A stretch of 64,000 nucleotides of DNA from contig JANLFK010000012.1 of the NCBI GenBank assembly GCA_024655945.1, forward strand, positions 1 through 64,000, written 5' to 3'. Shown in pieces: positions 13,010-34,131 of the stretch. The notes under the pieces were generated by a model. It had not been told where the DNA came from, did no database searches, and saw nothing but the letters and a program-made list of their open reading frames with translations. Positions within the stretch are counted from its first letter, which is position 1. Each line of letters opens with the position of its first letter. The position numbers and the translations under genes are program-made. Origin of the DNA: a candidate division KSB1 bacterium. Its GTDB lineage: Bacteria; Zhuqueibacterota; Zhuqueibacteria; JANLFK01; Oleimicrobiaceae.

Positions 13010-14608
13010 CTATTCAAGAACCACCATCCTCCTCGTCTTGGAAAAGCTGCCCGCCGTCATCTTGTAAAAGTAGATGCCGGCCTTTAGCTCCTGGGATGAC
13101 ATCCGAACCCTGTACCTGCCAGCGGGCAGCGTCCTGTTCACCAGTGTCACCACCTCCTGCCCTAACAGGTTGTAGACCTTGAGCTGCACAGGGCACTCCC
13201 GCGCTACGGCGAACTCGATCGTTGTCTCCGGATTGAACGGATTGGGGTAGTTCTGCAACAGTGCAAAATCAGCCTTGCCGGTAGCCGTGCCATCGATTCG
13301 TGAAAAGTAGTCGCCGGTCATAAAGCTTGCCACTGCCGAGTAGTCGCTGCTGCCGTACTGATTGATACCGCACACGCGCCAGAAGTAGCGCTGGTTCGCG
13401 GCAAGCCCAGTGACCTGGGCAACCGTGTCGCAAACCACCGTGTCCGCCACCAGGCTGCCAAACGTGCTCGTCACCGACAACTGAACCCGATACTCTCCGG
13501 CTGTCTCGGACGTGTGCCAAGTGAGCAGCGGATTGCGAGGAACGTTGACCACACCGTTGGGGGAGATGACCAGCGGCGGGAATGGACTGCGCACATACGT
13601 CTTTAGCCACTGCATGGCCGGTCGCTCCCTGCCACTGTAGTCGATCAGAAAGGTATAGGGATGCGCAGTCCACACATCATACTCGTAGTAGCCCCAAAAG
13701 GTCATTCCCTTCACCGCAGGATGATTCCAGAAGATCGGGAAGTAAATCTTGTACTGCTGGAGCTGGACGGTGTTGTCCTGCTCATCGATGTCGAACTCGG
13801 TGATGTAGATGGGGAGTCCCAACGTCGCAAGGCGGTCGAGGTTGGCCTTGATGACGTTGATGTCGTAGACATACGTACTGCCGCGAAACTCAAAGTAGTG
13901 CCCCTGGATGCCGATGCCGTCGATCAGTCCCCTCGCCTTCAGCAAACTGACCAGGTTCATGTACCTTGTCGTCTCTGAGTTTGAATGCAGGATGTTGTAC
14001 TCGTTCAGGAGCAACTTCGCTTGTGGCGGACAGTAGCGCCGCGCAAGCTCAAAGGCGGTAATGACCCAGTCCCACCCCGTCGCCCCGTCTCCCCCGAGCG
14101 CGTTCTTGTATACCGGCGGTGCATGAAAGGGCTCGTTCACGACGTCAACCAATGCCATCTGCGGGTAGCGTTCGCCTATGCGGCGCATCCATTCCTCCAC
14201 TGCCTGCCTCTGCCCTGACGAGTCCAGCGAGGCAATCCATGAAGGCTGCTGCTGCCCCCAGACCAAGGTGTGTTCTTTGAACAGGATCCCCTTGCTCATG
14301 GCGTATTCATAGATGCGATCCAGGTTACTCCAGTTGTACTGACCACGGGTATACTCGACCGATCCCCACTTGCCGTCGTTGCCAGGGGTGATCTGGTTGA
14401 AGTACTTGTCAAAGTTGCGGTAGACGTCGCGCCCGCTTGCCGCGCCGAGGAATTTACTTTTCCCTTGGGCAAGTGGCTGGGCAATAGTCCGCAAGGGGAA
14501 CAGCGCGCAAAGGAAGACAACCACCCCCATCCTCAGTGCCCGACGCCAATGGAACTGCCCGAAACTGTGACGCTTCCAACTGAAACGCGAGCACAAAAGA
14601 AACTTCAT
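13010..14608 (-). CDS. GH10 endo-beta-1,4-xylanase with Fn3-like domain and T9SS tail
   Basis: A 532-residue secreted enzyme. After an extended signal region (hydrophobic about 28-42, cleavage near TIAQ) comes a GH10 barrel with acid/base E159 in VDVVNEPF and nucleophile E271 in ITEFDIDE. A fibronectin-III-like domain follows (about 375-460, YFWRVCGINQYG). The last 75 residues begin LLQNYPNPFNPETTIEF and form the type IX sorting tail ending GIYFYKMTAG...VVLE, so the enzyme is probably displayed or released at the cell surface. The start at 14608 is behind GGGAGG; the frame extends 61 codons further without a signal. GH10 enzymes cut the xylan main chain. It is part of the leftward xylan array. 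Confidence 0.93.
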   Translation of the reverse strand: MKFLLCSRFSWKRHSFGQFHWRRALRMGVVVFLCALFPLRTIAQPLAQGKSKFLGAASGRDVYRNFDKYFNQITPGNDGKWGSVEYTRGQYNWSNLDRIYEYAMSKGILFKEHTLVWGQQQPSWIASLDSSGQRQAVEEWMRRIGERYPQMALVDVVNEPFHAPPVYKNALGGDGATGWDWVITAFELARRYCPPQAKLLLNEYNILHSNSETTRYMNLVSLLKARGLIDGIGIQGHYFEFRGSTYVYDINVIKANLDRLATLGLPIYITEFDIDEQDNTVQLQQYKIYFPIFWNHPAVKGMTFWGYYEYDVWTAHPYTFLIDYSGRERPAMQWLKTYVRSPFPPLVISPNGVVNVPRNPLLTWHTSETAGEYRVQLSVTSTFGSLVADTVVCDTVAQVTGLAANQRYFWRVCGINQYGSSDYSAVASFMTGDYFSRIDGTATGKADFALLQNYPNPFNPETTIEFAVARECPVQLKVYNLLGQEVVTLVNRTLPAGRYRVRMSSQELKAGIYFYKMTAGSFSKTRRMVVLE

Positions 14609-14741
14609 GACAACCTCCCTGCCTAAACACATTTGCCCATGGACCGGATGCGCTGCCCACAACAAGGAATCCACGCGCAAGAGCTGGTTCCCCAATTTGT
14701 GAGCACCCCACAAAGACGGGCACCCGAGCTGGAACGTCATC

Positions 14742-15389
14742 CTACCTGACCACGATTCTCTGCTCCAGCGCCACCAATCGTCCCTTGTCAATACCCCTCT
14801 TCAAAACTTGCGCATAGAGCGATTGTACTTCTTCCAGCGGGAGTGGGCCTTTGACCACAACGTCTATGGTCCCGTCGGCCTGTCGGTCGATGGCCACGGT
14901 AGCCTCCGGGTTGGGCGCTCGTCGATCGCGCATAATCCTGAACTGGTTGAGACACTCCTGCGCACCCGGGCAGAGAGTGCGGACCTCGTAGTGGTATTTC
15001 GCATCTTGGTCGTCATACGACTTGCCGCGCGGCGTTACCAAGCGCAACTTGCCTTCGCTGGCGAGCGTCTCCAGCGCCACTTCGTAGAGCTCCTGCGCCT
15101 GTGCCACCGTCACCTCGCCGAGCGTTACTTCGTCTATGAAGCCGTCTTGGCCATAGTCCACCGCGACAAAGCGCCTACTGATCAGTTCGTTGAAGGACAG
15201 GTCCCTGCCGGCCGCCTGCACAGATCGGATGCGGTAGTGTTCGCCCCTGAACTCGAAGCTACAAAACGCCACAGTGGGACTGGGCTCCTTGCCCGCACAC
15301 GAAAAGAACAGCGCTAAGGTCAAAAGGCCAAGAGCACCGCCCAGGTGCTTTCTGTGCCCCAGACTGGGCCTCAGGGGTCGTCTTTTCAT
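14742..15389 (-). CDS. hypothetical lipoprotein
   Basis: A 215-residue protein that I do not recognise. The N-terminus is basic and then hydrophobic (about 20-32) and ends at a cysteine in LFFSCAG, a plausible though imperfect lipobox. The mature part alternates charged helices and strands and contains two similar segments about 100 residues apart (VTVAQAQELYEVALE and LPLEEVQSLYAQVLK), each following a DG-rich strand (YGQDGFIDEV, RQADGTIDVV). It may therefore be an internal duplication of a small alpha/beta domain. ATG at 15389 with GGGAGG just upstream. It sits 133 bp before GH10 and 71 bp after the beta-helix gene, so it is likely co-transcribed with the xylan genes. Function unknown. Confidence 0.7.
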   Translation of the reverse strand: MKRRPLRPSLGHRKHLGGALGLLTLALFFSCAGKEPSPTVAFCSFEFRGEHYRIRSVQAAGRDLSFNELISRRFVAVDYGQDGFIDEVTLGEVTVAQAQELYEVALETLASEGKLRLVTPRGKSYDDQDAKYHYEVRTLCPGAQECLNQFRIMRDRRAPNPEATVAIDRQADGTIDVVVKGPLPLEEVQSLYAQVLKRGIDKGRLVALEQRIVVR

Positions 15390-15460
15390 TGCCCTCCCGA
15401 CGTTGGAACCACTGCAAAACGGGCGACCTCCCGCAGCTGACACGGTTGCCACCCGTGCGC

Positions 15461-17338
15461 TCAAAACTCCGCGCGCACAGGGGGAAACGCGCCGATGTAG
15501 CCCCTCTCTGTGCCGAGCAACTTTACTACCTCCGCGGGCAGTTTTCGCCCCGGAGGAGCCCCTGGATGCTCCTCCAGGGGCCGGTAGTCGCCCAATTCAA
15601 GGCTCTTGAAAAGCTGTCCGCGATATCCAGACAGATGCCAAGTCTGCACGGCATATTCCGGGTGCGCCTCTTGGAACGAAGCAAATGAGTCGTAGACCAG
15701 GTAGCAACTGTCGGTCTTCTCCGGCCCCCACACGACCAGTGGCAACCTCACGCGCGACGAGGTGGTGACGAACACGTTGTGGTCCATGGCGCGCACCTGC
15801 GAGTCCTTCAGGCGTTCGCACAACGCTGTCGGCTGCCACACGTAGAGCAGCGGACGCTCGAAACCCTCGTTCGCATAAAGCAGGTTGTTCACAAGAACAT
15901 GCCCATGTCGCTTGTCCACGTCAGGCCCGGTACTGGGATGCCAGCCGAATGGGTCGCCGGCCGCACGCCGCGCATTGCGCGAGATGCAGGCGGTACTGTT
16001 TACAAAGGTGTTGTTGTAGATCTGCACATCGGAGCTGTTAAGCACCCACAGCCCGTGGTCGCAATTGACAAACAGGTTCCCTGCACATATTGCCCCTTTA
16101 GAAATCTCAAAGAAGAACCCGTTGTTGCTCGGCCAGGGGCGCTCAATTGGGAACTGGCCCTTCGTGCTTCCGACATTCTCTACCCAATTGTTCAGAAACC
16201 GCCCATCGACGTTGCCCACATCATACCAGATGCCATTGGAATAGGGTAGATCGACAACCAAATTGTCACGGCACGTGACGCGATGACACTGGTTAAAGAT
16301 CTTGACAGCCGCAGGGTAATAGCCTGTTATCCTTTCAATGTTGTTGCGAGTGAAGATGTTCCTTTCGAGGAGCACGTCATTGGAACTCATGATGTACAGG
16401 CCTTCGGTGCTCGTGTCGCTGACGCGGCAGTGTCGAATCGTGAGCGAGTCTCCTTTGAGGTAGGCACCCACGCGGGAACAGTAGGAAATGGTGCAGTTTT
16501 CCAAAAGCGTGCCAACCACGTCTTTGCCGAAGCTCGCTTCATCGGCGGGGCCTTCGGGGAAGGCGCCTTCCACCTCTAAGGCACGAAACGCATATTGCGT
16601 GAAGGTGATGCCTCGTATCTTCGGCCCCCTTCGGTCTGGTTTCTTGCCATGAACCTCTCCTGTCGTCCGCAAGAGCGCGACATCGAACGCGGTGATTTCC
16701 ACTTCCCTGCCTGTGGGGTCGACGCCGATGTAGAGTCTCCCGCTCTCGTAGTCGATGTAGAAGCTGTTCTCGTCGACCTCTCCTTCCCAGCCCGCCGATT
16801 GCAAGAACCTGCCGTCGACAAACACCATGTCGTTGTTGAAGCGGTGCAGCGGCGTCACCTTGCCCTCGCGGTTACGGTTCCACCATTCGGCCGGACGAGA
16901 AGGAAACAGATAGGGCCATTTCGTGACCCAAAGACCGTTACCGAGGCTTTGCCAGTCGGTGGCCACATACGTGCCTTTCAGTATCGGTTGCTCATCGAGG
17001 TAGGGCTGAATGATTATCCCCTGGTTGAAGAGAAGCCTGCCGGTACGGTAGATGCCACCGCGGAGGACGATGGCCTCACCGGTCTTGGCACGTACAATCG
17101 CCGACTCGATAGTAGTGGGTGAGGACAAACTACTGCCGACGGCATCTGCCTTGCCGTCAGGGGCAACGTAGTAGATCCTTCCCTTGACTTGCGGGATGGT
17201 GTAGGACTGCCGCAAGGGGCCATACGGCCCGCCACTGGGCTGAGCCAATAGCGGCACGCCGCAGAAGATGGCCAGAAGCGACAACGTGAAAGTCCTCAAG
17301 CGAAGGTTGAAACAATTGTGGTCACCATGTCCTATCAT
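15461..17338 (-). CDS. secreted right-handed beta-helix protein, possible glycosidase
   Basis: A 625-residue exported protein (signal peptide to about residue 32, PLLAQ). The mature part opens GRIYYVAPDGKADAVGSS with a SAIVRAKTGEAIVLRGGIYR segment, the usual cap of parallel beta-helix (pectate-lyase-like, DUF1565-like) proteins. Repeated coils follow from about 220 to 520 (ENCTISYC, IRHCRVSD, LLERNIFTRNN, IYNNTFVNS). There is no T9SS tail. Beta-helix families that act on xylan exist (GH120 beta-xylosidase, GH141), and the cap resembles GH120 in style, but I cannot identify catalytic residues. ATG at 17338 follows GGGGAGG. It is in the middle of the xylan array, so a hemicellulose side-chain activity is plausible. 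The exact reaction is unknown. Confidence 0.78.
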   Translation of the reverse strand: MIGHGDHNCFNLRLRTFTLSLLAIFCGVPLLAQPSGGPYGPLRQSYTIPQVKGRIYYVAPDGKADAVGSSLSSPTTIESAIVRAKTGEAIVLRGGIYRTGRLLFNQGIIIQPYLDEQPILKGTYVATDWQSLGNGLWVTKWPYLFPSRPAEWWNRNREGKVTPLHRFNNDMVFVDGRFLQSAGWEGEVDENSFYIDYESGRLYIGVDPTGREVEITAFDVALLRTTGEVHGKKPDRRGPKIRGITFTQYAFRALEVEGAFPEGPADEASFGKDVVGTLLENCTISYCSRVGAYLKGDSLTIRHCRVSDTSTEGLYIMSSNDVLLERNIFTRNNIERITGYYPAAVKIFNQCHRVTCRDNLVVDLPYSNGIWYDVGNVDGRFLNNWVENVGSTKGQFPIERPWPSNNGFFFEISKGAICAGNLFVNCDHGLWVLNSSDVQIYNNTFVNSTACISRNARRAAGDPFGWHPSTGPDVDKRHGHVLVNNLLYANEGFERPLLYVWQPTALCERLKDSQVRAMDHNVFVTTSSRVRLPLVVWGPEKTDSCYLVYDSFASFQEAHPEYAVQTWHLSGYRGQLFKSLELGDYRPLEEHPGAPPGRKLPAEVVKLLGTERGYIGAFPPVRAEF

Positions 17339-17882
17339 GTCATGCCTCCCCGGGCTCTCGTCTGCAGCCCAACCGCCGGTGATGACAAGTCGCTATGTCT
17401 ATTTCAACAACAGCATGTTCCTTGTCTTGGCCACCCATCCTACCTGCAGCCTTCATCGGGCAGCTACCCTCGGGAAATCCGACGCAATTCGGCATCCACC
17501 CAGAAAATTTGCGGGGGCGCCGTCTCCTGAGTCACTCCCGGCTCCGGTGCCACCCTGGTCAATCTCTCCACCGGCGGAGCGGTCATCACTCGTCGGACAA
17601 GGTACCGACTATTCCGGTCGCGCATGAACAGTGTCTGCGATCACTTGCCGCCCGCCGCTGCCGTGGCGATGGCCCAATTGAAGCTGCTGTGGTCATCAAG
17701 GCAATCGCCCTCACATGCAGCCTACCACTCCGCGCGCGCCCTTCCGGTCCATGAGCCTGAGACGGCAAGCACCGCGACGGCCACACCCGCCAGACGGGTA
17801 GCGCCCTCTGCCGGTTCGTCTTCGACTAATACGCGCAGAACCTCTCGTCGACCAACGAATCACAACCCACAACCACGTATGC
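17339..17882. other. 544-bp gap within the xylan array
   Basis: Lies between the stop of the second GH10 gene and the beta-helix gene, both on the minus strand. No frame with a ribosome site or recognisable protein is visible on either strand, and I see no promoter matching the TTGACW-N17-TATATT pattern. The gap may separate two transcription units. Confidence 0.4.
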
Positions 17883-19607
17883 TCATCTGACGACTGTCAG
17901 CTTTTGGGTCTCCACACGATCGCCCGCTTTCATGTGACACAGATACGTGCCGCTGGGCAGACTGCTGCCGTCGAATCTCACCACATAGTCACCTGGACCC
18001 TGGAGCTCGTGAACCAACGTAGCGACTTCTTTTCCACGGAGGTCAAAAATCCTGACACATACCTCGCTGGTGAGGAGCAGACGGTAACTAATCGCCGTGC
18101 CCCCTTTAAATGGATTGGGATAGCTCGGCTTGAGGGAGAACTGCCGGGGATATCGCTCGCTGGCCAACCTCACGGCGCTTGCCGGTTGCAGAGCATCCAT
18201 AGAAGCCTTCAGGGCCACGAAAGCAGCCTCAAGGGTATCGGCAGCGGAGGTCGTGTAGGAGTAATTGCGAGTCATCGCGTTCCGCGCCCTGGAAAGCGCC
18301 TCTGCGAAATCCGCCCAGCTTTGAGGTGAAAAGTCCTCCTCCTTCAGAGCAGCGGCCCGAGCCACCAGAGAATCAAGCCCGTTGTAGTAGGTCCCTACAG
18401 CCACTACGGCAAAGAAGGCCGGTTTGCATTGGTTATTGGCATCCCACAGCGACGAAGACTGATTGGTCTTGAAAGTGTACTGGTCGTTGAGGCCATCCTT
18501 GGACACGCTGATGATCTTCCCCCTGCCAGAGAAGTAGCTCCGCTCCACAAAACACTTGAAAAGTTGCCCGTACTGATTGGCCTGCTGGCGCAGCACCTCC
18601 ATCGGTGGCTGGGCGTAGCCTGTGGTGACATCAAGCTCAGTCACCGCCATTTCGTGGCAGATCGGGTCGAACTTCTGGTAAGAGGCAATCCACTGTTCGG
18701 CAGTTGGAGAGGTCAAGGCGTCATGCTCCTGCATGCCGATGCCGTCGAGGTAGCCTGCTGCAAACATCGGGCCGCACAGGCGCACGATTCCGTTTGCTTT
18801 CGCGGCAAGGTGGGTGTTGTAGTCGTTGTAGTAGAGCTTCATTTGCGTTTCGCCATAGGCCAGGCAGTATTTGCGCGTGAGTTCAAATGCCTTCATGATG
18901 TAGCTATTGTCCCCAAAGGTGCGGAACCACTCACTGTCCGTCCTGTCCTGGCCGTTATCTAACACGGCTTCATTGACCACATCCATGGCCGACAGCAACC
19001 CCGGCCAGCCTTCGTGGAGGAGGCGGATGACTTCACGAATGTAGTGTTCCATCCGCTCGGTCATCTTTTCTTTGGTCAGGCGTGGGCCCGCCTCTGAATA
19101 GCCGGAGCGAAAGAAGGCAGCAGGCGTCTGACTGTGCCACACTAAGGTGTGGCCTCTGAAAGTGAACCCCTGCCGCTTGGCCCAGTTAAGTTGCGCAATC
19201 AGGTCGCCATTGAAGCGAATGATCGGGTGCACATCGATCGAATCGCGTGCCGCCTGGCTGGTGGCGTTGTTGTAGGCTGCTGCGCTGGCGGCGATGTCCA
19301 CCGTGTATTGCGGCTTCATGTTGTTGCCGGGGCTCATGCTGTTCATGTGAAACTCTATCAGCTCCCCGCCATGGCGCGCGACCACGGACGACTGGCCCGG
19401 CACGTAAGGGTCATCGGGAAAACCGATGTGCCGATAGGACAGGAGACAGCCGATGTAAAAGTCGTGAGCGTATACTCCCCGCAGCCGGGGAACGTTGGTC
19501 TGTACTGTGTCCACTTGCGCGAACGCATGGAGGTAAAGCAGCAGTACGGCCAACGTCGACCACAACCACTGTCTTGAACGAATTGATGCGGTCTGGTGCG
19601 CGCTCAT
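17883..19607 (-). CDS. GH10 endo-beta-1,4-xylanase with T9SS tail
   Basis: A 574-residue secreted enzyme, distinct from the GH10 at 13 kb. A signal peptide ends near residue 31 (LHAFAQ). The GH10 barrel has RGHTLVWHSQTP at 151-162, acid/base E213 in DVVNEAVL and nucleophile E324 in VTELDVTT. Between about 55 and 130 there is an extra segment before the usual GH10 core. A helical linker of about 85 residues then leads to a T9SS tail (LKPSYPNPFKGGTAISY ... KLTVVR). ATG at 19607 behind AAGGAAGG; an adjacent upstream GTG is also possible. It lies 113 bp after the four-repeat protein, with a strong stem-loop in between. Role: cell-surface cleavage of the xylan backbone. Confidence 0.92.
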   Translation of the reverse strand: MSAHQTASIRSRQWLWSTLAVLLLYLHAFAQVDTVQTNVPRLRGVYAHDFYIGCLLSYRHIGFPDDPYVPGQSSVVARHGGELIEFHMNSMSPGNNMKPQYTVDIAASAAAYNNATSQAARDSIDVHPIIRFNGDLIAQLNWAKRQGFTFRGHTLVWHSQTPAAFFRSGYSEAGPRLTKEKMTERMEHYIREVIRLLHEGWPGLLSAMDVVNEAVLDNGQDRTDSEWFRTFGDNSYIMKAFELTRKYCLAYGETQMKLYYNDYNTHLAAKANGIVRLCGPMFAAGYLDGIGMQEHDALTSPTAEQWIASYQKFDPICHEMAVTELDVTTGYAQPPMEVLRQQANQYGQLFKCFVERSYFSGRGKIISVSKDGLNDQYTFKTNQSSSLWDANNQCKPAFFAVVAVGTYYNGLDSLVARAAALKEEDFSPQSWADFAEALSRARNAMTRNYSYTTSAADTLEAAFVALKASMDALQPASAVRLASERYPRQFSLKPSYPNPFKGGTAISYRLLLTSEVCVRIFDLRGKEVATLVHELQGPGDYVVRFDGSSLPSGTYLCHMKAGDRVETQKLTVVR

Positions 19608-19640
19608 CACTTCCTTCCTTGGGAACAGGTCCGGCCCGAT

Positions 19641-19684
19641 CCGACAGCAGCCTGTCTGCAGGCTGCAGACAGGCTGCTTGTCGG
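19641..19684 (-). other. intercistronic stem-loop (20 bp with one bulge)
   Basis: GCAGCCTGTCTGCA (19647-19660) pairs perfectly with TGCAGACAGGCTGC around a 3-nt loop. The stem continues with CCGACA and TGTCGG across a one-base bulge. It lies between the four-repeat gene and GH10. No T-run follows on the minus strand, so partial termination or mRNA protection is more likely than full termination. Confidence 0.6.
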
Positions 19685-19719
19685 GGCTGCAAAGAGGCGA
19701 ACGACAGAAACGAGGAGGT

Positions 19720-22700
19720 CTACTTCATCAAAGTCAGCTTCCGGGTCTCGGTGTACTCGCCCGCTTTCAGCCTGCACAGGTACACGCCGGAGGGCAGGTT
19801 GGAGGCGTCAAAGTTCACGGAGTAGTAGCCCGCAGTCATCCGGCCATTGACCAGGGTGGTCACTGGTCGACCCAACGCGTCGTGGACCACCAGGCTCACC
19901 TCGCCGTCGCGCGGCAAAGCGAACTGAATGGTGGTCGACGGGTTGAACGGGTTCGGATAGTTCTGCCGCAACGCATACTCGGTAGGCACCATCCGATCCG
20001 GCAACATGGCTACCGCAACCAGCAGCGAATCCGGGATCTGGATCGGTTCGCCCATGTCCACATGCACATCGTACAGCTTCAACGCTTTGGCCGTGGCTTG
20101 GTTGCTGACCCCAAAGTTGATGCTGTTGAACTTGGTCGTCACCAGCGGCACATGCTCATCGCTGACAATGCCGGCAAAGTTGTAGGTGCCGTCTTCCTTA
20201 TGGATGTAATACCTTATCTCGGTCTTCCCCTCGCGCACAGGAGCCAACGAGAAAGCAAAGTGATACAGACCGGGTCCACCCACTGCAGCGGCCGGCAGCT
20301 GTGTGCGTGCCGTAAGCACATAGTGATTCGGGCCGTTGGTGCTAAGCCACCCATAGTCGACCACGGCGCCCACGGTACCCAGTTGGCCAATGCCCTGCCA
20401 GTTGGTGAGCTCGTTGTTGCCACTGTGCGGCAGGAAGAGGTAGCCATTGTGGTGACCTTCCGTGCCCGTCCACGAGTCGCCGACAACAACCCCAGCACTA
20501 TCGCTATGGAAGACGCCAAGCCGCAAGGAGCTCCAGCCTTCAAAACCGCCACCCTCGAACTCCATAGAGCCGGTCACAACGAGGGCCTTGCCGGAGGTGA
20601 GTTTCACTTCTCTGGCGAATCCACCACGAATAGCCGCCCAGCCTGTAGGCGCGCTCGTGCCGGAGATGGTGACGTTGCCGTCCACCTCTCCCGGAGTCAA
20701 GGTCCAGCCACCGGTGCGGCCACCAATGAAGCCCCAGTCCGCGACGTAGAACGGGCTGAACGGCGCCTCGGGGATTTCAATGGGTTCGCCGCGGTCCACG
20801 TACACATCGCGCAGGTACATGCCGCGCAGCTTGGCCGGTTCCTCGCCGGGATCACCAATCATGGCAAAGCAGACGCCATTGAACCGCGTGGTGATCCCCG
20901 TGGTGTCGATGGAGGTCGCCGCCCACCAGTAGCTGTTGTCCTCCTTCACGAAATAGAAGCGAACCTCGTTGCTCCCATCCGGCAGCGGGCGCACCGAAAT
21001 CGCCCAGTTGTACACACCGGCAGTCATCTCCGCGCGGAACGGCTCCTGGCGCACAAAACCCATGGAAAGGTGGCTCATGCCGTACGTGCTGATCCACGCA
21101 CCCCCGCGGACCACGCCGTGGTCACCTCCGCCGCCGGCCGCCCAGTTCGGGCTCTCGTTCACCCCGCTGTGCGGCTGGAATAGGTAGCCATAGGCTCGGC
21201 TCTCGTACCCCGTCCAGAACGCAGAGTCGGTATCCACGTTGACCAGCACTCCGGCACTGTCGTGGTAGAATAGACCCCATCGCAGTGCACCCCACCACTT
21301 TGGATCTGCGCCCACAAACTCAATCTGGCCCGTGACGCGGATCGCATTCTCTGCGGTGGCGGTCACCACCTCCTCAAACCCACCGCGAATGGCTGACCAC
21401 TGACCGGGGATTGGCCCGGTATCGCCGCCGATGCCAGCATTCCCCGCATATTCGCCGGGGATGAACTTCCAACCGGCAGTACGCGTCGGCCCCTTGTTAC
21501 CGATGAAACCCCACTGCGCCACGTAAAACGGCACAAACGGCGCCTCCGGTATCTCTATCGGCGCCCCCCGATCCACGTACACATCCTCAAGATACATCCC
21601 CCGCACCGTCGAGGTGCTCCCACCCTGACCACCATTGATCGCAAAACACACCCCGTTAAACTTCGGCGCGATCGTCGTCGTGTCCCGCGACACCGCACCC
21701 CACCAATAACTGTTGTCCTCCTTGATCAGGTAAAACCGCACCTCCTTGGTCCCATCAGCCAACGGCTGCACCGAAACCGCCCAGTTGTAAACCCCCTCCG
21801 TCATCTCCGCACGCCGCGGCTTCTGATCCACAAAGCCCAACGACAAATTGTTCCCATACGTGCTCAACCACGTCCCGTACCGCACTACCCCATGATCACC
21901 CCCTCCCCCATGCGCCCAGTTCGGACGATCCACTACCCCATTGTGCGGCGCAAACAAATACCCATTGGCGTACTTCTCGTACCCATTCCAGTACGCCGAA
22001 TCAGTATCCACATTCACCACCACCCCCGCACTGTCGTGGTAGAACAACCCCCAGCGCAACGCATTCCACCACTTCGGATCTCCCCCCACAAAGCGAATCT
22101 TCCCCGTCACCCGAATCGCGTTCTCCTGAGTGGCCGTCACCACCTCCTCAAACCCACCACGAATCGCGCTCCACTGGCCATCCAGCAATGCCTGATCGCC
22201 AGCTACCCCCGCATTGCCGGCAAACTCCCCAGGCACAAACTTCCAACCACTGGTACGCGTCGGCCCCTTGTTACCGATGAAACCCCACTGCGCCACGTAA
22301 AACGGCACAAACGGCGCCTCCGGTATCTCTATCGGCGCCCCCCGATCCACGTACACATCCTCAAGATACATCCCCCGCACCGTCGAGGTGCTCCCACCCT
22401 GACCACCATTGATCGCAAAACACACCCCGTTAAACTTCGGCGCGATCGTCGTCGTGTCCCGCGACACCGCACCCCACCAATAACTGTTGTCCTCCTTGAT
22501 CAGGTAAAACCGCACCTCCTTGGTCCCATCAGCCAACGGCTGCACCGAAACCGCCCAGTTGTAAACCCCCTCCGTCATCTCCGCACGCCGCGGCTTCTGA
22601 TCCACAAAGCCCAACGACAAATTGTTCCCATACGTGCTCAACCACGTCCCGTACCGCACTACCCCATGATCACCCCCTCCCCCATGCGCCCAGTTCGGAC

Positions 22701-23154
22701 GATCCACTACCCCATTGTGCGGCGCAAACAAATACCCATTGGCGTACTTCTCGTACCCATTCCAGTACGCCGAATCAGTATCCACATTCACCACCACCCC
22801 CGCACTGTCGTGGTAGAACAACCCCCAGCGCAACGCATTCCACCACTTCGGATCTCCCCCCACAAAGCGAATCTTCCCCGTCACCCGAATCGCGTTCTCC
22901 TGAGTGGCCGTCACCACCTCCTCAAACCCACCACGAATCGCGCTCCACTGGCCATCCAGCAATGCCTGATCGCCAGCTACCCCCGCATTGCCGGCAAACT
23001 CCCCAGGCACAAACTTCCAACCACTGGTACGCGTCGGCCCCTTGTTACCGATGAAACCCCACGTTTGCACCGCGCTCTGGCCGAGCGCCACCGTCTCCCC
23101 CACGGCGACAGCTGCGATCACCAGAGCCACGAACAAGTAGCGAGCTCCTTTCAT
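19720..23154 (-). CDS. large secreted four-repeat protein with T9SS tail, unknown function
   Basis: An 1144-residue exported protein (signal peptide to about residue 26, VALGQ). It consists of four tandem units of about 258 residues, starting at W32, W290, W548 and W807 with the motif WGFIGNKGPTRT (degenerate in unit 4, WGFIGGRTGGW). A T9SS tail follows from about residue 1070 (LRQNYPNPFNPSTTIQF ... KLTLMK). Each unit contains FVGGDPKWWNALRWGLF-like and NGYLFAPHNGV-like strands, a GGGGDHG loop, and ends VYVDRGAPIEIPEAPF. This looks like an all-beta jelly-roll, perhaps carbohydrate binding (inference). Units 1 and 2 are identical at DNA level; units 3 and 4 have diverged. ATG at 23154 behind AGGAGGG. 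It sits between a T9SS beta-helix protein and GH10 downstream of the TonB receptor. I know no function for it. Confidence 0.85.
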   Translation of the reverse strand: MKGARYLFVALVIAAVAVGETVALGQSAVQTWGFIGNKGPTRTSGWKFVPGEFAGNAGVAGDQALLDGQWSAIRGGFEEVVTATQENAIRVTGKIRFVGGDPKWWNALRWGLFYHDSAGVVVNVDTDSAYWNGYEKYANGYLFAPHNGVVDRPNWAHGGGGDHGVVRYGTWLSTYGNNLSLGFVDQKPRRAEMTEGVYNWAVSVQPLADGTKEVRFYLIKEDNSYWWGAVSRDTTTIAPKFNGVCFAINGGQGGSTSTVRGMYLEDVYVDRGAPIEIPEAPFVPFYVAQWGFIGNKGPTRTSGWKFVPGEFAGNAGVAGDQALLDGQWSAIRGGFEEVVTATQENAIRVTGKIRFVGGDPKWWNALRWGLFYHDSAGVVVNVDTDSAYWNGYEKYANGYLFAPHNGVVDRPNWAHGGGGDHGVVRYGTWLSTYGNNLSLGFVDQKPRRAEMTEGVYNWAVSVQPLADGTKEVRFYLIKEDNSYWWGAVSRDTTTIAPKFNGVCFAINGGQGGSTSTVRGMYLEDVYVDRGAPIEIPEAPFVPFYVAQWGFIGNKGPTRTAGWKFIPGEYAGNAGIGGDTGPIPGQWSAIRGGFEEVVTATAENAIRVTGQIEFVGADPKWWGALRWGLFYHDSAGVLVNVDTDSAFWTGYESRAYGYLFQPHSGVNESPNWAAGGGGDHGVVRGGAWISTYGMSHLSMGFVRQEPFRAEMTAGVYNWAISVRPLPDGSNEVRFYFVKEDNSYWWAATSIDTTGITTRFNGVCFAMIGDPGEEPAKLRGMYLRDVYVDRGEPIEIPEAPFSPFYVADWGFIGGRTGGWTLTPGEVDGNVTISGTSAPTGWAAIRGGFAREVKLTSGKALVVTGSMEFEGGGFEGWSSLRLGVFHSDSAGVVVGDSWTGTEGHHNGYLFLPHSGNNELTNWQGIGQLGTVGAVVDYGWLSTNGPNHYVLTARTQLPAAAVGGPGLYHFAFSLAPVREGKTEIRYYIHKEDGTYNFAGIVSDEHVPLVTTKFNSINFGVSNQATAKALKLYDVHVDMGEPIQIPDSLLVAVAMLPDRMVPTEYALRQNYPNPFNPSTTIQFALPRDGEVSLVVHDALGRPVTTLVNGRMTAGYYSVNFDASNLPSGVYLCRLKAGEYTETRKLTLMK
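21479..23062 (-). repeat. exact tandem duplication, 774-bp period
   Basis: Bases 21479-22288 and 22253-23062 read identically (810 bp, overlapping by 36). They encode units 1 and 2 of the four-repeat protein. The edges are sharp: the base before each copy and the base after each copy differ. Codon use inside the copies favours GGG, TTG, CGG, GCG and TTT, while units 3 and 4 use more GGC, CTC and ATC. Confidence 0.92.
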
Positions 23155-23244
23155 CTCACCGCCCTCCTCTTTTGTTTGTGGTGCTGCGCCTCATACGGGT
23201 CTCGATCGAGAAGCCGCAGCAAGAGCTCTTCTCCTTCGCCGCCA

Positions 23245-23286
23245 CGGTTGCCCCTCCCTTTGCGTGCTGCCCGGGAGGGGCAACCG
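23245..23286 (-). other. intercistronic stem-loop (14 bp)
   Basis: CGGTTGCCCCTCCC (23245-23258) pairs perfectly with GGGAGGGGCAACCG (23273-23286) around a 14-nt loop. It lies between the T9SS beta-helix gene and the four-repeat gene. There is no T-run after it on the minus strand. With the stem-loop at 19641 it suggests post-transcriptional tuning of the operon. Confidence 0.6.
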
Positions 23287-23310
23287 CAGACTGACCCGCC
23301 AACGCTCCTG

Positions 23311-25125
23311 CTACTTAAGCAAAACGAACTTCCTCGTCAAGGACACGCCCTCGCCCTCGAGGCGATACAGGTACACACCGCCTGGGAGCTTTGAGCCGTC
23401 AAAGGTGACGGTATGCTCACCAGCAGCTGTCACTCCGTCCACCAACGTGGCCACCTTTTGCCCCAGGCCATTGTACACCGTCAGCCGAATCCGCCCCGCC
23501 GTGGGCAGGGAGAAGGGGATCTTGGTTCTCGGGTTGAACGGGTTCGGGTAGTTTTGGGCGAGTCGAAAGCCTGTGGGCAGAGGGTTCGCGACGGGCGGTT
23601 CCACACTGCTCTGCGGGTCGATGCCCGTGTCCCGCCAGGTCAAGATTCTTGCCCGCTCCTGGTCAGCCTGCGCGCTCCAGCGCTCGTACTGCTCAGGCCA
23701 CCAGTGGTAGAGATCTCCCAGCGGGAAGCCACCCATGGCTGCAGTCTTCAGAGTATCATTCCGGTAAGCCAAGTTCTCCGGCAGAGGCCACGTCTGATAA
23801 TAGCCTGCGTCCGGGTCGTAGGCCCAATTGGTGTCCGCGTTGGTGCTCCACTTGTAGTTCAGAAACACCTTGATGGCCTCCAAGTCGGTAGGTGGCACCA
23901 GAATGCGCGGGTTCAGCGCCGAAATGGGCTTTCCCCTCAGGACTCCGCTGGTCTCCCGCACAAACTCCAGCCCATTGTAAAGACTGTCCATGGTCATATA
24001 CGGGAAACGACTGTCGTCGTTGAAGAAGGCAATGGTCGAGTCGTTGAGCATCGGCATGGGCGCCGGCACCATGTCGACCTCGCGGTTCCTCTTCTTCTCC
24101 TTGCTATACGGGCAGTTTACCATCCAATCGGTGAGCCAATCCTCCAGGTAGTAGGCGTTATGGGCGAACAGGATACGGCGATCTTGCTCGGTGAAGGGCA
24201 CGCTGAATCCGAAGTCCGCGACCTTCCCAATCGCAATCGTACCGCCGAACGGCACTCCCCCACCCAGCTGGGCAGGAATGTATCCGAACATGTAGGTGTT
24301 GACAAAGAGCGAGTTGGTGACGTTCATCTTCCACCACCACCCCGACTCCAAGACGAACATGACCACGTTCATGAAGGTGCAGTGGTTGAAGTAGACTTCA
24401 TCACCGTACTCCCCACCCTCCTGCATGTACACGTAGCCGATGTTGGCGAAGGTGCAGTTCTCGAAGTAGACATAGTCGTTGTGCCAGCCGGTCGTGGCAT
24501 AAGGGAAGGACAAGGCGCGGCCGTAGTACCGCAGGTGGGTGTCGATGCAGTTGCGGAAGTAGCAGTTCTTGAACGTACCTCTGAAGCGTTCCGCGGTAAC
24601 GGTCACGGCCCCACCAGCATTGGGGGGACAAGAAGAGTACTCGAAGACCACATTCTCGAAGATGCCCACTTCCCCCTTGCCAGATGCGTTGGCTACCGGG
24701 TCGTCTTCGAACTGAATAGTTGTCCCTACCTGCGCCCCAGCGGTGTTGGCATAGCGAAGCCAAACGTTCTTCATGGTGAGATCACCGAAGCAGTCGAACA
24801 TGAAGTTGGTGGCGACCCCGCCGCTTGAGGTCCACACGATCTGGGGCGGTGCCTCTTCCTGTTTTCTCCCCACTGGCGGCCCAACGATTTCCAGATGTTC
24901 CCCCTGGGGTACCGTGATGGTGCCGGTGATGATGTAGTAGCCTAACCTCTCCAGCTTAAAGACCGTCCTTGACAGGGTTCCGGCGTTGATCTTCTCCTGA
25001 ACCGCGACGTTCAGATTCCCCTCGCCCGCCAAGTCACTGGCCACGTACACTGTGTCCCTCTGTTGCGCGTAGGACACCGTTGCCAGGACCAGAGTGATGA
25101 CAAACATCATTAGCCAGCGCCTCAT
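23311..25125 (-). CDS. secreted beta-helix-like protein with T9SS tail, next to the TonB receptor
   Basis: A 604-residue exported protein (signal peptide to about residue 20, TVSYAQ). The middle part (about 60-330) has coils typical of a right-handed parallel beta-helix (LTMKNVWLRYANT, FKNCYFRNC, FENCTFANIGYVYM, FNHCTFMNVVMFV). A loop-rich region with WSTNADTNWAYDPDAGYY follows, then the T9SS tail (LAQNYPNPFNPRTKIPF ... KFVLLK). The strong AAGGAGGAG site selects the ATG at 25125; an in-frame start 19 codons upstream has none. It follows the receptor by 99 bp, the position where SusD usually sits, but shows no lipobox and no SusD-like helical repeats. It may be a surface glycan-binding partner of the receptor or an enzyme. 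Function unknown. Confidence 0.8.
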   Translation of the reverse strand: MRRWLMMFVITLVLATVSYAQQRDTVYVASDLAGEGNLNVAVQEKINAGTLSRTVFKLERLGYYIITGTITVPQGEHLEIVGPPVGRKQEEAPPQIVWTSSGGVATNFMFDCFGDLTMKNVWLRYANTAGAQVGTTIQFEDDPVANASGKGEVGIFENVVFEYSSCPPNAGGAVTVTAERFRGTFKNCYFRNCIDTHLRYYGRALSFPYATTGWHNDYVYFENCTFANIGYVYMQEGGEYGDEVYFNHCTFMNVVMFVLESGWWWKMNVTNSLFVNTYMFGYIPAQLGGGVPFGGTIAIGKVADFGFSVPFTEQDRRILFAHNAYYLEDWLTDWMVNCPYSKEKKRNREVDMVPAPMPMLNDSTIAFFNDDSRFPYMTMDSLYNGLEFVRETSGVLRGKPISALNPRILVPPTDLEAIKVFLNYKWSTNADTNWAYDPDAGYYQTWPLPENLAYRNDTLKTAAMGGFPLGDLYHWWPEQYERWSAQADQERARILTWRDTGIDPQSSVEPPVANPLPTGFRLAQNYPNPFNPRTKIPFSLPTAGRIRLTVYNGLGQKVATLVDGVTAAGEHTVTFDGSKLPGGVYLYRLEGEGVSLTRKFVLLK

Positions 25126-25165
25126 GACTTCTCCTCCTTCTGCTGCGTCCACTGTTCTTGTCGCA

Positions 25166-25198
25166 CCAGCGCACCACCCCATTTGCGATGAGCGCTGG
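25166..25198 (-). other. weak intercistronic stem-loop
   Basis: CCAGCGC (25166-25172) and GCGCTGG (25192-25198) form a 7-bp stem with a 19-nt loop between the TonB receptor gene and the next gene. Much weaker than the hairpins at 19641 and 23245. Confidence 0.3.
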
Positions 25199-25224: not shown

Positions 25225-28200
25225 TCAAATGCGGTAGCGAATGCCCAGGTTTGCCACCAAGCCGTAGTTCTGAACGCTGGTAAATCCGCCAATGGATTTT
25301 TGCGCCGACATGTTCGAACGGCTGTTAAGATTCACCGCATCGAAGAATGCCTCCAAGCCCCACCAGGGCAGTTTCTGCCGCATGGACAGGTCAACACGGA
25401 AGAAATCGTTGGTGAAACCATCCTGCTCGGGGAACGCACCGACATAGCTCACGGAATTGCCCTGGAACACGAACGACAGACGCATCGAAAAACCTTTCAG
25501 GTCGTAGCCGAGGTAGGCGTTGGCCACGTCATTGGGCTGGTAGATCAGCCGGCCTTCGCGGGTGCTGTCGGTGGTGAAAACGAGGAATCTCGGCTCTCGA
25601 GAGCCGGGTTTCCAATTAGGATTGGGGGCAGTCTTCTCATCGCGCAAGGGATACACTGCATCAGAGCTCATATGCGCATAGTTCAAGCCAAGAACCAAGC
25701 CTGACAAGGGTTGAGGCAAGTACCAGAAGTTGGTCTGGAAGTCAAACTCAATGCCCTCCACATGAGCGGGTGAGCGACCGTTGACGTAGGTGTAGAGCCA
25801 TGCGCCGTCCTTGGGCTCCGAGAAGCCTCCCCCTGTAAAGGTGATTCTATAGGATCCCAGAGAATCCAACCCGGCTGGGGCGGTCTTGTGGAGTTTGTAT
25901 TGCGAGTAGTAGGTAAAGTTCTCCACCTTCTTGCGGAAGACCCCCACCGACAGGAGACCCAACTTGCTGCCGTGGAGAGTGAGCTGAGCATCATGGTTGT
26001 AGGCATGGGCAGTCTTCAGCTTAGGGTTGCCCGCCCACACAGCGCCGCCGTCATAGCTTATGGTGAATTTCGGGGACAGCTGATGGTAATCAGGGCGAGC
26101 CAGGCTCTGCGCGTACGCATAGCGTAGGTCAAGCCAGCGGAAGAGTTTCAGCTTTGCCTGTGCCATGGGCAGCCAAAACTCATTGCCGGGGCGGGCCGTC
26201 ACCTCGTCGTAGTATTGCTCCTGGTCTTGCGGACTCCTGGCATCTCTCATGTTGTACGCGGTGTAGTCAGAGGTCACTTTCTCATAGCGAATGCCACCCA
26301 CCAGCGTCAGGGCGCCGACAAAAGGATGGAGCCCAAAGACTTCCCCCACTGGCGGCAAGTTCAGTTCCGCCATCGCGTAGCCTGCTGAGTAGCGCTCCAC
26401 ATAGCTATAGTCGTTCGCCAGCCGCTGGAATATTCCTTCGAACCACCCACCAGCGTTGGTGCCCGTGGACTTGTTGACAAAGTTGGTGTCGGTGCGGAGA
26501 TAGTGCGCCATGGCCAGCGGCAGGGACGGGTCGCCTGCCCAGTAGAATTGCCCGAACTTGTTATCCAAGAAAGCTCCCATGAGCTTCCTGTCGCCCATGA
26601 ACCTTGCTGCAGTAAACATCCCTGTGGATGGATCATAGTCCACCCCGAAGCGACTCACCAGCGTATCCAGCATGGCGTTGTTGATCTGGCTGCCGCGTCT
26701 GAGCTCGCCGTACGGGGTCTCCTGGTCGTTGTTATGGTCACCACGCCGGAACTGCCCGCCGAACTTCAGGTAGCCGTGAAATATTGGACCAACACGAATC
26801 GGCACCCGCAAATTGCTTGAGTACTCCTGGTTGCTCTCCTTGTACGTGCTCGCAAACAGGTTTAGGTTGGTCAGGTAGGTCTTTTCTGGCCCATAGTACT
26901 CCACTTGTGTCTTCAGGTCCTCTGGTTTCTTGTTGATTCCCACTTCCCCCCCTGTGCCACCGGTCTGTCGGTATATCAAGTAGGGGGAGTCGGGCAGACT
27001 GTTCTTTGAGTAGGTGCTGGCGAATTTGAGCTGCAGGGAGAACCGTCGAAAGTCCTGACTGAAGTCCAGGGAGTTGGTCGCCATGTCGATGGTATTTGTG
27101 CCACCTCTGTAGGTAAAGTCGATCCGCCTGTCCAGGTAGTTCAGTACGGTGCGGTGGTCATGAAAATCGGACTGCAGGCGCGCCAAGACGTTGACGGACT
27201 TGAGCGAACCCGACCGGAGGCGGTAGTCGAGAATCAGGTTGGCACCCAGGCGCTTGCGCGTTTCGATGTGACGATTGAGCGCGACGTTGTTCACGCGCAC
27301 GGGCCGATATCCGGTGGTAGTGTCTATGGTGCTGCTGGCCGTGGCATAGGCGGCGCTCATGTTGTCTGAGTTTCGATCGTACTTTTCCAAGTTGCCCAGT
27401 ACATAGACACCAAGCCTCTCGTCGAAGAAACGCTTGCTGGTCGAGGCCACGGCGCGGTAGTTGTCGTAGGTGCCGCTCTTCCTCGTATAGCCGGATTGCC
27501 AGAGCAAGTCATGGTGGAGCTCCGATGGAGCCTCGCGCAACTCCATGTTGACGGTGCCGCCTATAGTGTTCGCGTCCATGTCCGGCGTGAGCGACTTGTA
27601 GAGAGCTATGGTCTTTATCATGTAAGGCGAAATCATGGAGACATCGGTGCTGCGGTCCGTGTTAAGAGTGCCTGCAGTCGTCCCTGGCTGAGAGGCGACG
27701 CCGATCTGGGTGCTGCCGGTGGAGGCGAGCCTCACGCCTTCCAAAGAGACTGCGTTGTATTGCGGAGCAAGACCGCGGATGACCACCTTGTTCGCCTCAC
27801 CAGAGCTAAGGAGGGTGGAGACCCCAGGCAAGCGGCTGATGGCCTGCGCAGCGTTGAAGTCGGGCAGCTCCTGAATGCGCGCTTCCGACACCACATTAGC
27901 GATCTTGTCGGAGGCAAGTTGCTGGGTGATTGCCTGAATCTGCCCTTGCGCTTGTGCAGTGACGACCACTTCTTTGCCCCTCAGCACCACCCGCTCCAAG
28001 GCAAAGTCCTGCCGGATGGTTCCACTGCCGGTCACCATGACGTCAATGTTCACAGTACTGTAGCCTATGTAGGAGACTACCAGGGTGTGCTTGCCAAGGG
28101 GGACGTTGTAGATTGTGTAGTAACCTTCGAGGTCGGATGCGGCACCCATGGTGGTACCCTTGATGAAGACGTTTGCGGATGGCAGAGCTTCTTTGGTGTC

Positions 28201-28356
28201 TTTGTCAAAAACCCTCCCCTTGATTACCGCGGCAGCCATCAGCAGGTGGGGCATGAGCAAAATCAGAAGCAGACACAGGAGGAAGCGGCCCCCCTCGAAT
28301 TGGGCTGATCGCCAGAGAACGTACTTTCCGGAAAAACGAGCAGATTTTCTGGTCAT
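25225..28356 (-). CDS. TonB-dependent outer-membrane receptor (SusC-like, carboxypeptidase-regulatory N-domain)
   Basis: A 1043-residue outer-membrane transporter. A signal sequence (hydrophobic about 25-42) is followed by a carboxypeptidase-regulatory-like domain (IKGRVFDKDTKEALPSANV, about 45-120), a plug (about 150-320, with ISRLPGVSTLLSSGEANKV and VIRGLAPQYNAVSLEGV) and a long beta-barrel ending in the strand LVANLGIRYRI. Its 5' position in the xylan operon suggests import of xylo-oligosaccharides. There is no SusD gene beside it. The start is the ATG at 28356 behind AGGAGAGG; the frame continues 75 codons upstream without a signal. The promoter is about 390 bp upstream and overlaps a LacI-type site, so induction by xylan breakdown products is expected (inference). 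Confidence 0.92.
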   Translation of the reverse strand: MTRKSARFSGKYVLWRSAQFEGGRFLLCLLLILLMPHLLMAAAVIKGRVFDKDTKEALPSANVFIKGTTMGAASDLEGYYTIYNVPLGKHTLVVSYIGYSTVNIDVMVTGSGTIRQDFALERVVLRGKEVVVTAQAQGQIQAITQQLASDKIANVVSEARIQELPDFNAAQAISRLPGVSTLLSSGEANKVVIRGLAPQYNAVSLEGVRLASTGSTQIGVASQPGTTAGTLNTDRSTDVSMISPYMIKTIALYKSLTPDMDANTIGGTVNMELREAPSELHHDLLWQSGYTRKSGTYDNYRAVASTSKRFFDERLGVYVLGNLEKYDRNSDNMSAAYATASSTIDTTTGYRPVRVNNVALNRHIETRKRLGANLILDYRLRSGSLKSVNVLARLQSDFHDHRTVLNYLDRRIDFTYRGGTNTIDMATNSLDFSQDFRRFSLQLKFASTYSKNSLPDSPYLIYRQTGGTGGEVGINKKPEDLKTQVEYYGPEKTYLTNLNLFASTYKESNQEYSSNLRVPIRVGPIFHGYLKFGGQFRRGDHNNDQETPYGELRRGSQINNAMLDTLVSRFGVDYDPSTGMFTAARFMGDRKLMGAFLDNKFGQFYWAGDPSLPLAMAHYLRTDTNFVNKSTGTNAGGWFEGIFQRLANDYSYVERYSAGYAMAELNLPPVGEVFGLHPFVGALTLVGGIRYEKVTSDYTAYNMRDARSPQDQEQYYDEVTARPGNEFWLPMAQAKLKLFRWLDLRYAYAQSLARPDYHQLSPKFTISYDGGAVWAGNPKLKTAHAYNHDAQLTLHGSKLGLLSVGVFRKKVENFTYYSQYKLHKTAPAGLDSLGSYRITFTGGGFSEPKDGAWLYTYVNGRSPAHVEGIEFDFQTNFWYLPQPLSGLVLGLNYAHMSSDAVYPLRDEKTAPNPNWKPGSREPRFLVFTTDSTREGRLIYQPNDVANAYLGYDLKGFSMRLSFVFQGNSVSYVGAFPEQDGFTNDFFRVDLSMRQKLPWWGLEAFFDAVNLNSRSNMSAQKSIGGFTSVQNYGLVANLGIRYRI

Positions 28357-28735
28357 GGCAATTGCCTCTCCTGTTTTCCGGTCGTGACTGTTACCCATGG
28401 CACCATGGCTCGGCCTCCGTTGCCTTGGAAGCAGAGTAGCCGAAACGCAGATACCACCGTCGCCGACTCGCGATGTGCTCCCACGGAGGTCGTCTTCCCA
28501 TGGCGCTGCCAAAGCTGTTGAGAATTCCTGATGGACTGCTATGAGAAAGGCTGTACGGGCCAGGTTGTTCTGCGGCCCCATTGGAGAGAAACGCAGAGGA
28601 AGGATTGCTAAGAATGCGGTTCATGGCTCACAATATCCTTAGCTCGTTAGCAGATGCCCTGGAAGCACCCCAGGCTCGCATCTCGTCTTCGACAGCTACA
28701 GCCGGATATTGTCACAGCAGTGAGGACAGACTCAC
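28357..28735 (-). other. long 5' leader of the TonB receptor operon
   Basis: About 380 nt between the mapped promoter and the receptor start codon. The reading frame in phase with the receptor has no signal sequence or ribosome site and is probably untranslated. I see no recognisable riboswitch fold. Confidence 0.4.
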
Positions 28736-28750
28736 TTGAACCAGTTTCAA
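28736..28750. promoter_or_regulatory. LacI-type operator at the xylan operon promoter
   Basis: TTGAACCAGTTTCAA, an imperfect palindrome with arms TTGAA/TTCAA, overlaps the downstream edge of the -10. A half-site, GGTTCAA (28763-28769), lies in the spacer of the same promoter about 20 bp away. It matches the sites at 32737, 38482 and 38708. Confidence 0.65.
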
Positions 28751-28777
28751 TATAACAAAAGCGGTTCAAAATGTCAA
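28749..28777 (-). promoter_or_regulatory. promoter of the TonB receptor / xylanase operon
   Basis: On the minus strand, consensus TTGACA (28772-28777), 17-nt spacer and TATATT (28749-28754). The LacI-type site directly follows the -10, so bound repressor would block polymerase. Confidence 0.8.
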
Positions 28778-32956: not shown

Positions 32957-33988
32957 TCAGGAACGAGCTGCAACGGTGCGCACGAGCGCAAGAATGTTCT
33001 CCGTCTTGACCCCAGGTGGCATGCCACCACCACAAGAGACGATCACCCGCGCTTTGTCCGTGAGGCTATTAAGAAGGCCCGCGGTGGCCACTTCCACCTG
33101 CTGGGGCGTGCCATTGGCCAGCACGTCCCTGGGCGGGATGTTGCCAAGCAACGTCACTTTGCCCCCTGTGAGTCGCTGAAGTTCGCAAAGAGAAACATCA
33201 AATCCCATGTTGAACAGGTTGACGCCCATTTCCGCCAGGTAGGGGGCCGAAACCCCGCACGGCGCGTCATTGTGGAAGAACCTAATGGCAACATCGTGGG
33301 CGAACAACTCCTTGAAGCGCGGTAGCGCAAAGCGACGGAACTCTTCCTCGCCGATGAGCCCTACGATGTCGTCGAGGAGGAATATGCCATCGATGGTGGG
33401 AAAAGTCTCCCGCTGCAGGTGCAACCAGTCCTTGAGGAAGCTTGTAATCTTGTCCAGCAGCTGTTCTGTTTTCTCCGGCTCGATCATCATGGTCGTGAGG
33501 AACTCGGTGGTCCCCATGAGGTGCGCAGCGATGTTCAACGGGCCACGCGCCACGGAAAAGTAGACGCAATGGCCATGGCCGCGCAACTTCGGTTCTGCCA
33601 GCTTGAGGCGATTTAACACAAAGGGCAGCAGGCCATCAGTCCTGGGGTTCGGTTGGGGAAGCGCCTCCAGGTCCGCAATGGAAGCCAGCACCTTATGGGC
33701 ATGAGGGAACTCCTTTTCGGGAAAGGAACACCGGGCGCCAAAAGCAGAGGGCTCGGTGCACATGCCGAACTCGGCCCAAAAACCGGGAAGGAACAATACA
33801 TCGGGGAAATCGTTCGCTGCCTTGAGGTTGGCGGCGAACCACAATTCGTCGTTGGAGAAGTAATCAAGGATCCGCATCCCGTACCAGTTGGGCAACCAAG
33901 GGCTGTCGATAATGAACCCCACGGGCAGCGGAGTGAATACTTTCCCTGCCACCACCTGCTTGAGCATTTCCCATTGCTGCTCTGTCAC
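32957..33988 (-). CDS. uroporphyrinogen decarboxylase-superfamily protein (MtaA/CmuA methyltransferase-like)
   Basis: A 343-residue cytoplasmic protein of the URO-D fold. Instead of the heme-enzyme signature it has a likely zinc-binding set: H and C in FFHNDAPCGVS and a late cysteine in VSCGGGMPPGV. This resembles the H-x-C...C arrangement of MtaA/CmuA-type methyltransferases. Other visible landmarks are FYFSVARG-like VYFSVARGPLNIAAH and LLGNIPPRD. From the family it may transfer methyl groups to or from a corrinoid. The start is uncertain: GTG at 33988 has GGAGAAGAA before it, while the ATG at 34045 lacks a ribosome site. It follows GH115 by 143 bp, so it may act on 4-O-methylglucuronate or be a cobalamin-linked side function. 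That link is speculative. Confidence 0.7.
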   Translation of the reverse strand: MTEQQWEMLKQVVAGKVFTPLPVGFIIDSPWLPNWYGMRILDYFSNDELWFAANLKAANDFPDVLFLPGFWAEFGMCTEPSAFGARCSFPEKEFPHAHKVLASIADLEALPQPNPRTDGLLPFVLNRLKLAEPKLRGHGHCVYFSVARGPLNIAAHLMGTTEFLTTMMIEPEKTEQLLDKITSFLKDWLHLQRETFPTIDGIFLLDDIVGLIGEEEFRRFALPRFKELFAHDVAIRFFHNDAPCGVSAPYLAEMGVNLFNMGFDVSLCELQRLTGGKVTLLGNIPPRDVLANGTPQQVEVATAGLLNSLTDKARVIVSCGGGMPPGVKTENILALVRTVAARS

Positions 33989-34131
33989 TTCTTCTCCATC
34001 AGGTGCCGAGAGGACGCCAGCATTCCCCCGCGCAGCGGATGGCATTCGCAGTTGCTGCGCTCATCCACACAGCGCGGAGAGCCCCGTCCTTGCCGGGATT
34101 CTTTCTCGAGCTGATCTGCCCCCATGTCATC

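Follow-up and report, generated by a model that had tools for sequence, protein, structure and literature searches.

Glycan uptake in FCB bacteria has mostly been described through the SusC/SusD systems and lipoprotein SGBPs of Bacteroides. Among these, BACOVA_04391 (PDB 3ORJ) from the PUL-XylS of B. ovatus is a non-catalytic surface protein that comprises three beta-sandwich domains and binds xylan (PMC4491172), and its gene adjoins that of the surface GH10 enzyme BACOVA_04390 (PMC4491172; PMC8002723). In Cytophaga hutchinsonii, the SGBP-B-like surface protein CHU_1279 binds cellulose and is reported to be essential for the use of this polymer (PMC12016534).

The window analysed here, a 64,000-nucleotide stretch of a candidate division KSB1 genome (contig JANLFK010000012.1), contains a xylan locus conserved from this KSB1-class genome to Ignavibacteriota, Balneolota and Fidelibacterota. 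SusD (PF07980) gave no match in the window genome, the control genome being positive, and the two surface proteins of the locus, a predicted beta-helix protein and a protein of four repeated units, carry no lipoprotein anchors. The four-unit protein is probably (at a probability of about 0.7) a non-catalytic, multivalent cell-surface protein that is anchored by the type IX secretion system (T9SS), captures xylan and feeds a TonB receptor.

Repeated units and sorting tail of the four-unit protein

The gene of the four-unit protein (19720..23154, minus strand) encodes 1144 aa counted from the ATG. The product starts with a hydrophobic, signal-peptide-like segment without cysteine (23080..23154, minus strand; hydropathy maximum 2.33 over 15 residues). 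It is followed on the same strand by three units of the inner type, namely unit 1 (aa 32-289, 22288..23061), unit 2 (aa 290-547, 21514..22287) and unit 3 (aa 548-806, 20737..21513, the unit used for structure modelling), by unit 4 of the C-terminal type (aa 807 to about 1050, 20005..20736), and by a type IX secretion (type A) sorting domain (aa 1066-1140, 19735..19959). The earlier note had described four units of about 258 residues with a conserved WGFIGNKGPTRT start and a GGGGDHG loop. Four tandem units are present, with lengths of 258, 258, 259 and about 245 aa and starts at aa 32, 290, 548 and 807, and both motifs are confined to units 1-3, while unit 4, which begins with WGFIG at aa 807, has WGFIGGRTGG and GQLGTVG. 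The loop is not a conserved feature of the family, as only one of its glycines is kept across the alignment (86%).

Units 1 and 2 do not differ at a single nucleotide (100% identity) and lie in an exact 810-bp duplication with a spacing of 774 bp; direct repeats of 300 nt in this gene were also picked up by independent repeat finding. An assembly effect on this exact duplication is conceivable; the contigs of the sister species break within the unit repeat. Unit 3 shares 75% identity with units 1 and 2, and unit 4 shares 44% with unit 3, both far beyond chance. No second gene with units was found elsewhere in the host genome. Two plus-strand ORFs overlapping the gene (19678-21183 and 21892-23394) were rejected as frame shadows of a high-GC repeat because it is the minus frame that has homologues.

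The sorting tail that the earlier note had read in the sequence is confirmed by matches to TIGR04183 (39.8 bits, cut-off 23, E 3.2e-10) and PF18962 (Por_Secre_tail; 34.3 bits, cut-off 27, E 2.9e-8), so that the protein has the C-terminal domain, above curated cut-offs, that defines T9SS type A cargo. The translocon is represented in the host genome by SprA_N above its cut-off (E 1.5e-44). The tail together with SprA points to type IX surface anchoring, and the tail is found in place of a lipoprotein anchor, for which the signal segment has no cysteine. The protein would be exported via Sec and cross the outer membrane through the type IX system, the sorting tail probably holding it at the outer membrane.

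A family of units with a predicted lectin-like fold

Searches of Pfam with the whole protein and 44 units, of NCBIfam, and of the PDB by sequence and by profile revealed no credible match to any unit; weak single matches, such as PUS7L_N and RVT_3, were discarded as chance. This agrees with the earlier note, in which no known family had been recognised, and none of the 44 units has a confident match to a CBM or glycoside hydrolase family in Pfam or NCBIfam. The family HMM of the L-type (legume) lectins proper did not match the units either. A literature search found no paper describing the unit family, which is no proof of absence. The unit is a previously uncatalogued lectin-like domain, forming a compact family that has no curated model, and many 'hypothetical T9SS proteins' could consequently be named at once.

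The AlphaFold2 model of unit 3, built with 44 natural sequences, is all beta, with a pLDDT of 93.1 and a pTM of 0.91. In the VIA comparison, which is silent on known lectin or CBM structures outside the VIA list, the best solved matches were the thrombospondin C-terminal lectin-like domains (Z 12.3, rmsd 3.5, 179 aligned residues), and legume lectins and galectins matched at Z of about 10-11. Foldseek agrees on the fold with modest TM-scores (0.29-0.49), and identity in the structural alignments with L-type lectins and the thrombospondin domain is about 3-12%. The unit is thus predicted to be a concanavalin A-like/L-type-lectin beta-sandwich, the model superposing on solved concanavalin A-like members at the level of the fold only. 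The jelly-roll proposed in the earlier note is in keeping with this prediction, and the shared fold alone does not demonstrate sugar binding by the units. Predicted viral structures searched with the unit yielded only generic jelly rolls (TM 0.2-0.5), and no units were found in a scan of viral contigs or by tblastn against plasmids.

Aromatic residues are near-invariant at eight positions of the 44 aligned units (W1, W15, W39, W100, Y110, W140, Y168 and Y195), as is the arginine R78. D203 is the only near-invariant acid and the sole acidic column above 80% in the alignment (A4), and no histidine is near-invariant. No conserved catalytic-acid pair was found in this alignment-based comparison. 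A single near-invariant acid argues against an ordinary two-acid hydrolase, other chemistry being still conceivable.

A search of 60 related genomes with a single unit as query detected relatives in 17. The A4 profile, built from the 44 units, found units in 19 of 82 genomes from the window's phylum. It found them in 8 of 395 genomes in a sample of the phylum group to which a Melioribacter genome belongs, and in 5 of 245 from that of a Neomarinimicrobiota genome. The named loci belong to Ignavibacteria, Melioribacter, Balneolaceae, Neomarinimicrobiota, 'Bacteroidetes' and candidate division KSB1, with one KSB1 genome (G054, locus L025) belonging to the window's own class. The family is therefore scattered over FCB phyla, as far as searched, and its description in the earlier note as a module of FCB bacteria holds within that range.

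The genes contain two to four units, four being the commonest number. In a tree of 93 units, a single branch with support of 100/100 separates the 28 tail-adjacent units from the 65 inner ones, a split that none of 500 shuffles reproduced as cleanly, so that the inner and C-terminal types predate the spread of the gene over these phyla. The C-terminal unit is a distinct and anciently separate type, which may serve as a cap or base beside the anchor. Inner units multiply within lineages, as seen in the identical first two units of the four-unit protein and in closely similar neighbouring units in L023, L029, L032, L091 and L031; such lineage-by-lineage multiplication may have changed avidity.

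Gene order of the xylan locus and contents of the unit-gene slot

The four-unit gene follows a TonB-dependent receptor gene (25225..28581, minus strand), whose SusC-like product has a carboxypeptidase-regulatory-like N-terminus, and a gene for a 623-aa predicted right-handed beta-helix protein with a T9SS tail (23311..25182, minus strand), and it precedes the gene for a GH10 xylanase with a T9SS tail (17883..19610, minus strand). These are the neighbours named in the earlier note. The second GH10 xylanase with a T9SS tail is encoded at 13010..14791 (minus strand), and these two GH10 genes, both in the xylan locus, are the only ones found in the host genome. Upstream of the receptor gene lies a promoter-like site, TTGACA-17-TATATT with an extended -10 (28749..28777, minus strand; 11/12 positions), which is a consensus match only, the total of 5 such sites in the region being equal to the shuffled mean. 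The rest of the window encodes GH3, GH115, GH8 and GH43 enzymes, an alpha-L-arabinofuranosidase, a feruloyl-esterase-like protein and a GPH symporter, as expected of a glucuronoarabinoxylan locus.

The order TonB receptor, 623-aa T9SS protein, unit gene is found at 24 of the 27 loci readable upstream (the window and 23 others), the only exceptions being L096, L103 and L121, the last of which lacks both partner genes. At these 24 loci the unit gene thus has the position of an SGBP gene, directly after an outer-membrane transporter and a surface partner. Enzymes acting on xylan usually follow, and GH10, GH8, GH43, GH30-like, GH2, GH3 or esterase genes surround the unit genes. A GH10 gene like the downstream one of the window (63-73% identity) stands directly after the unit gene or one gene further on in L023, L024, L027, L031, L097, L099, L101 and L105, while other loci have GH8, GH10 of another type, GH30-like, GH2 or a GH35/DUF5597-type gene instead; L091, L119 and L121 have no GH10 within the stretch read. 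In the 82 genomes of the phylum, strong homologues of the 623-aa protein are present in 16 of 19 unit-bearing genomes versus 2 of 63 others (p 3e-12). For GH10 the corresponding counts are 17 of 19 and 29 of 63 (p 0.001); kinship is ignored in both comparisons. A congener of the host (G002) has neither units nor GH10 nor the 623-aa protein.

The partner of an SGBP would be SusD; in this locus the partner is the predicted beta-helix protein. The solved structure nearest to its model (pLDDT 80) is the C-terminal part (residues 426-747) of 7dmk, a large PL6 enzyme (Z 29.6). The protein resembles PL6 alginate lyases in the predicted structure of their second, C-terminal part and differs from them in its low identity (17%), its T9SS tail and the lack of a PL6 match in Pfam; the Pfam Beta_helix matches to the 623-aa proteins are weak, save for one orthologue just over the cut-off. 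Gene order suggests that it acts as the partner of the receptor. More distant copies adjoin other receptors (L034 and L092), and may indicate a wider SusD-like partner family.

Several other genes of the locus deserve mention. A short TGA-interrupted stretch at 17494-17688 (minus strand) is similar to a portion of the 623-aa partner (35% identity, E 7.8e-6) and is perhaps a decayed copy. The gene at 15461-17338 (minus strand) encodes a right-handed beta-helix protein without a T9SS match, kept at 60-69% identity in L023, L094, L095, L097, L099 and L100; the product could be a GH141-like beta-helix xylan enzyme. A 240-aa protein without a Pfam match (14742-15464, minus strand) is kept at about 40% in the L023 and L097 loci. 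Among the GH3 and GH115 genes lies a gene of the uroporphyrinogen decarboxylase family (32957-34045, minus strand), and L120 has a relative of it ahead of the receptor gene; that it takes part in transferring the methyl group of 4-O-methylglucuronate would be a guess.

Many unit proteins contain additional N-terminal modules. Those of L026, L027, L090 and L107 match CBM_4_9 with scores above its curated cut-off; that of L103 passes the cut-off of Mann_GBD_bact, a galactose-binding-like module, and has relatives in L105 and L106. A further module (A6), unnamed and about 170 aa long, with only weak hints of CBM30 and DUF5125, occurs in L028, L029, L033, L093, L107, L119 and L120, and profile comparison showed no relationship between it and the unit. 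No convincing divergent units were found within the N-terminal extensions, and no catalytic domain was recognised in the same chain among the relatives whose extensions were scanned. One genome (G052) has the same operon, with a receptor, a 623-aa protein and a GH10 enzyme that are 57%, 61% and 61% identical to those of the window, and the unit-gene slot is occupied there by an unrelated FG-GAP/UnbV and FN3 protein with a T9SS tail (L126:7001-9964). The slot thus takes surface proteins of varied origin without a recognised enzyme domain, and the N-terminal carbohydrate-binding modules are exchangeable among relatives.

Proposed function and relation to known systems

The place of the unit gene in a gene set common to several phyla suggests that the protein holds plant xylan at the cell surface, beside an enzyme that cuts it and a channel for uptake. 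Carbohydrate binding by the units is favoured from this context, the neighbouring genes pointing to xylan as the ligand. The four lectin-like beta-sandwich units would form a multivalent arm keeping xylan close to the co-secreted GH10 enzymes, and the oligosaccharides released could then pass to the TonB receptor; the beta-helix protein is likely a second surface component, in the place that SusD has in Bacteroides. Binding, the xylan ligand, the lack of catalysis and the hand-over to the receptor are what we infer from these data; at about 250 aa, individual inner units lend themselves readily to expression and testing. More tentatively, the receptor, the T9SS beta-helix protein as partner or lid and the T9SS lectin array in the role of an SGBP may together represent a SusD-independent capture and import system of several FCB phyla.

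The earlier note had also considered that the units might degrade glycans, which is disfavoured because they have no conserved acidic pair and no recognised catalytic domain is fused to them. The concanavalin A-like fold is used by several hydrolase and lyase families, the four-unit protein is co-encoded with xylan enzymes, and D203, R78, Y110, Y168 and Y195 are near-invariant and could serve a novel glycoside hydrolase or lyase with this fold acting on xylan or a side chain. However, with one acidic column above 80% the usual acid pair of hydrolases is not seen, nor is any histidine near-invariant; the N-terminal partner modules are binding modules, and three or four near-identical catalytic copies per chain would be unusual, which makes an enzyme in each unit unlikely.

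We also regard it as improbable that the protein serves for attachment or as a scaffold, organising a surface complex by binding another protein (the receptor, the beta-helix protein or the GH10 enzyme) instead of a glycan. The tighter coupling of the units to the 623-aa protein and receptor than to GH10, the separate conserved type of the C-terminal unit and the integrin-like FG-GAP and FN3 domains of the L126 replacement would fit such a protein, but the lectin-like fold and the carbohydrate-binding N-terminal modules of orthologues point to a glycan, and a number of inner units that varies is easier to explain by avidity for a polymer than by a fixed complex. A repetitive T9SS surface protein with a lectin fold might also be a general adhesin, for example in biofilms or cell contact, that stands in the xylan operon by chance; a gene order kept in many distant genomes and co-occurrence with xylan enzymes are unexpected of a chance neighbour, and this explanation is very improbable.

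In predicted fold the unit resembles L-type lectins and the thrombospondin C-terminal lectin-like domain, while no family HMM matches it. The four-unit protein would work like the SGBP BACOVA_04391, with which it shares (predicted) beta-sandwich domains in line, a GH10 neighbour and a place in a transporter locus. However, BACOVA_04391 is a lipoprotein working with SusC/SusD, whereas the four-unit protein has no lipobox, bears a T9SS tail and comes from a genome in which no SusD was detected, and no sequence similarity was found between it and BACOVA_04391 or PDB chains; it is not filed with the BACOVA_04391 family because anchor, partner and sequence differ. Its likeness to CHU_1279 is one of role, with no homology claimed: CHU_1279 is reported to be bimodular and to belong to a cellulose cluster (PMC12016534), unlike the four-unit protein, and it provides a precedent, in a cellulolytic specialist of the Bacteroidetes, for binding proteins that are needed in the use of a polymer.
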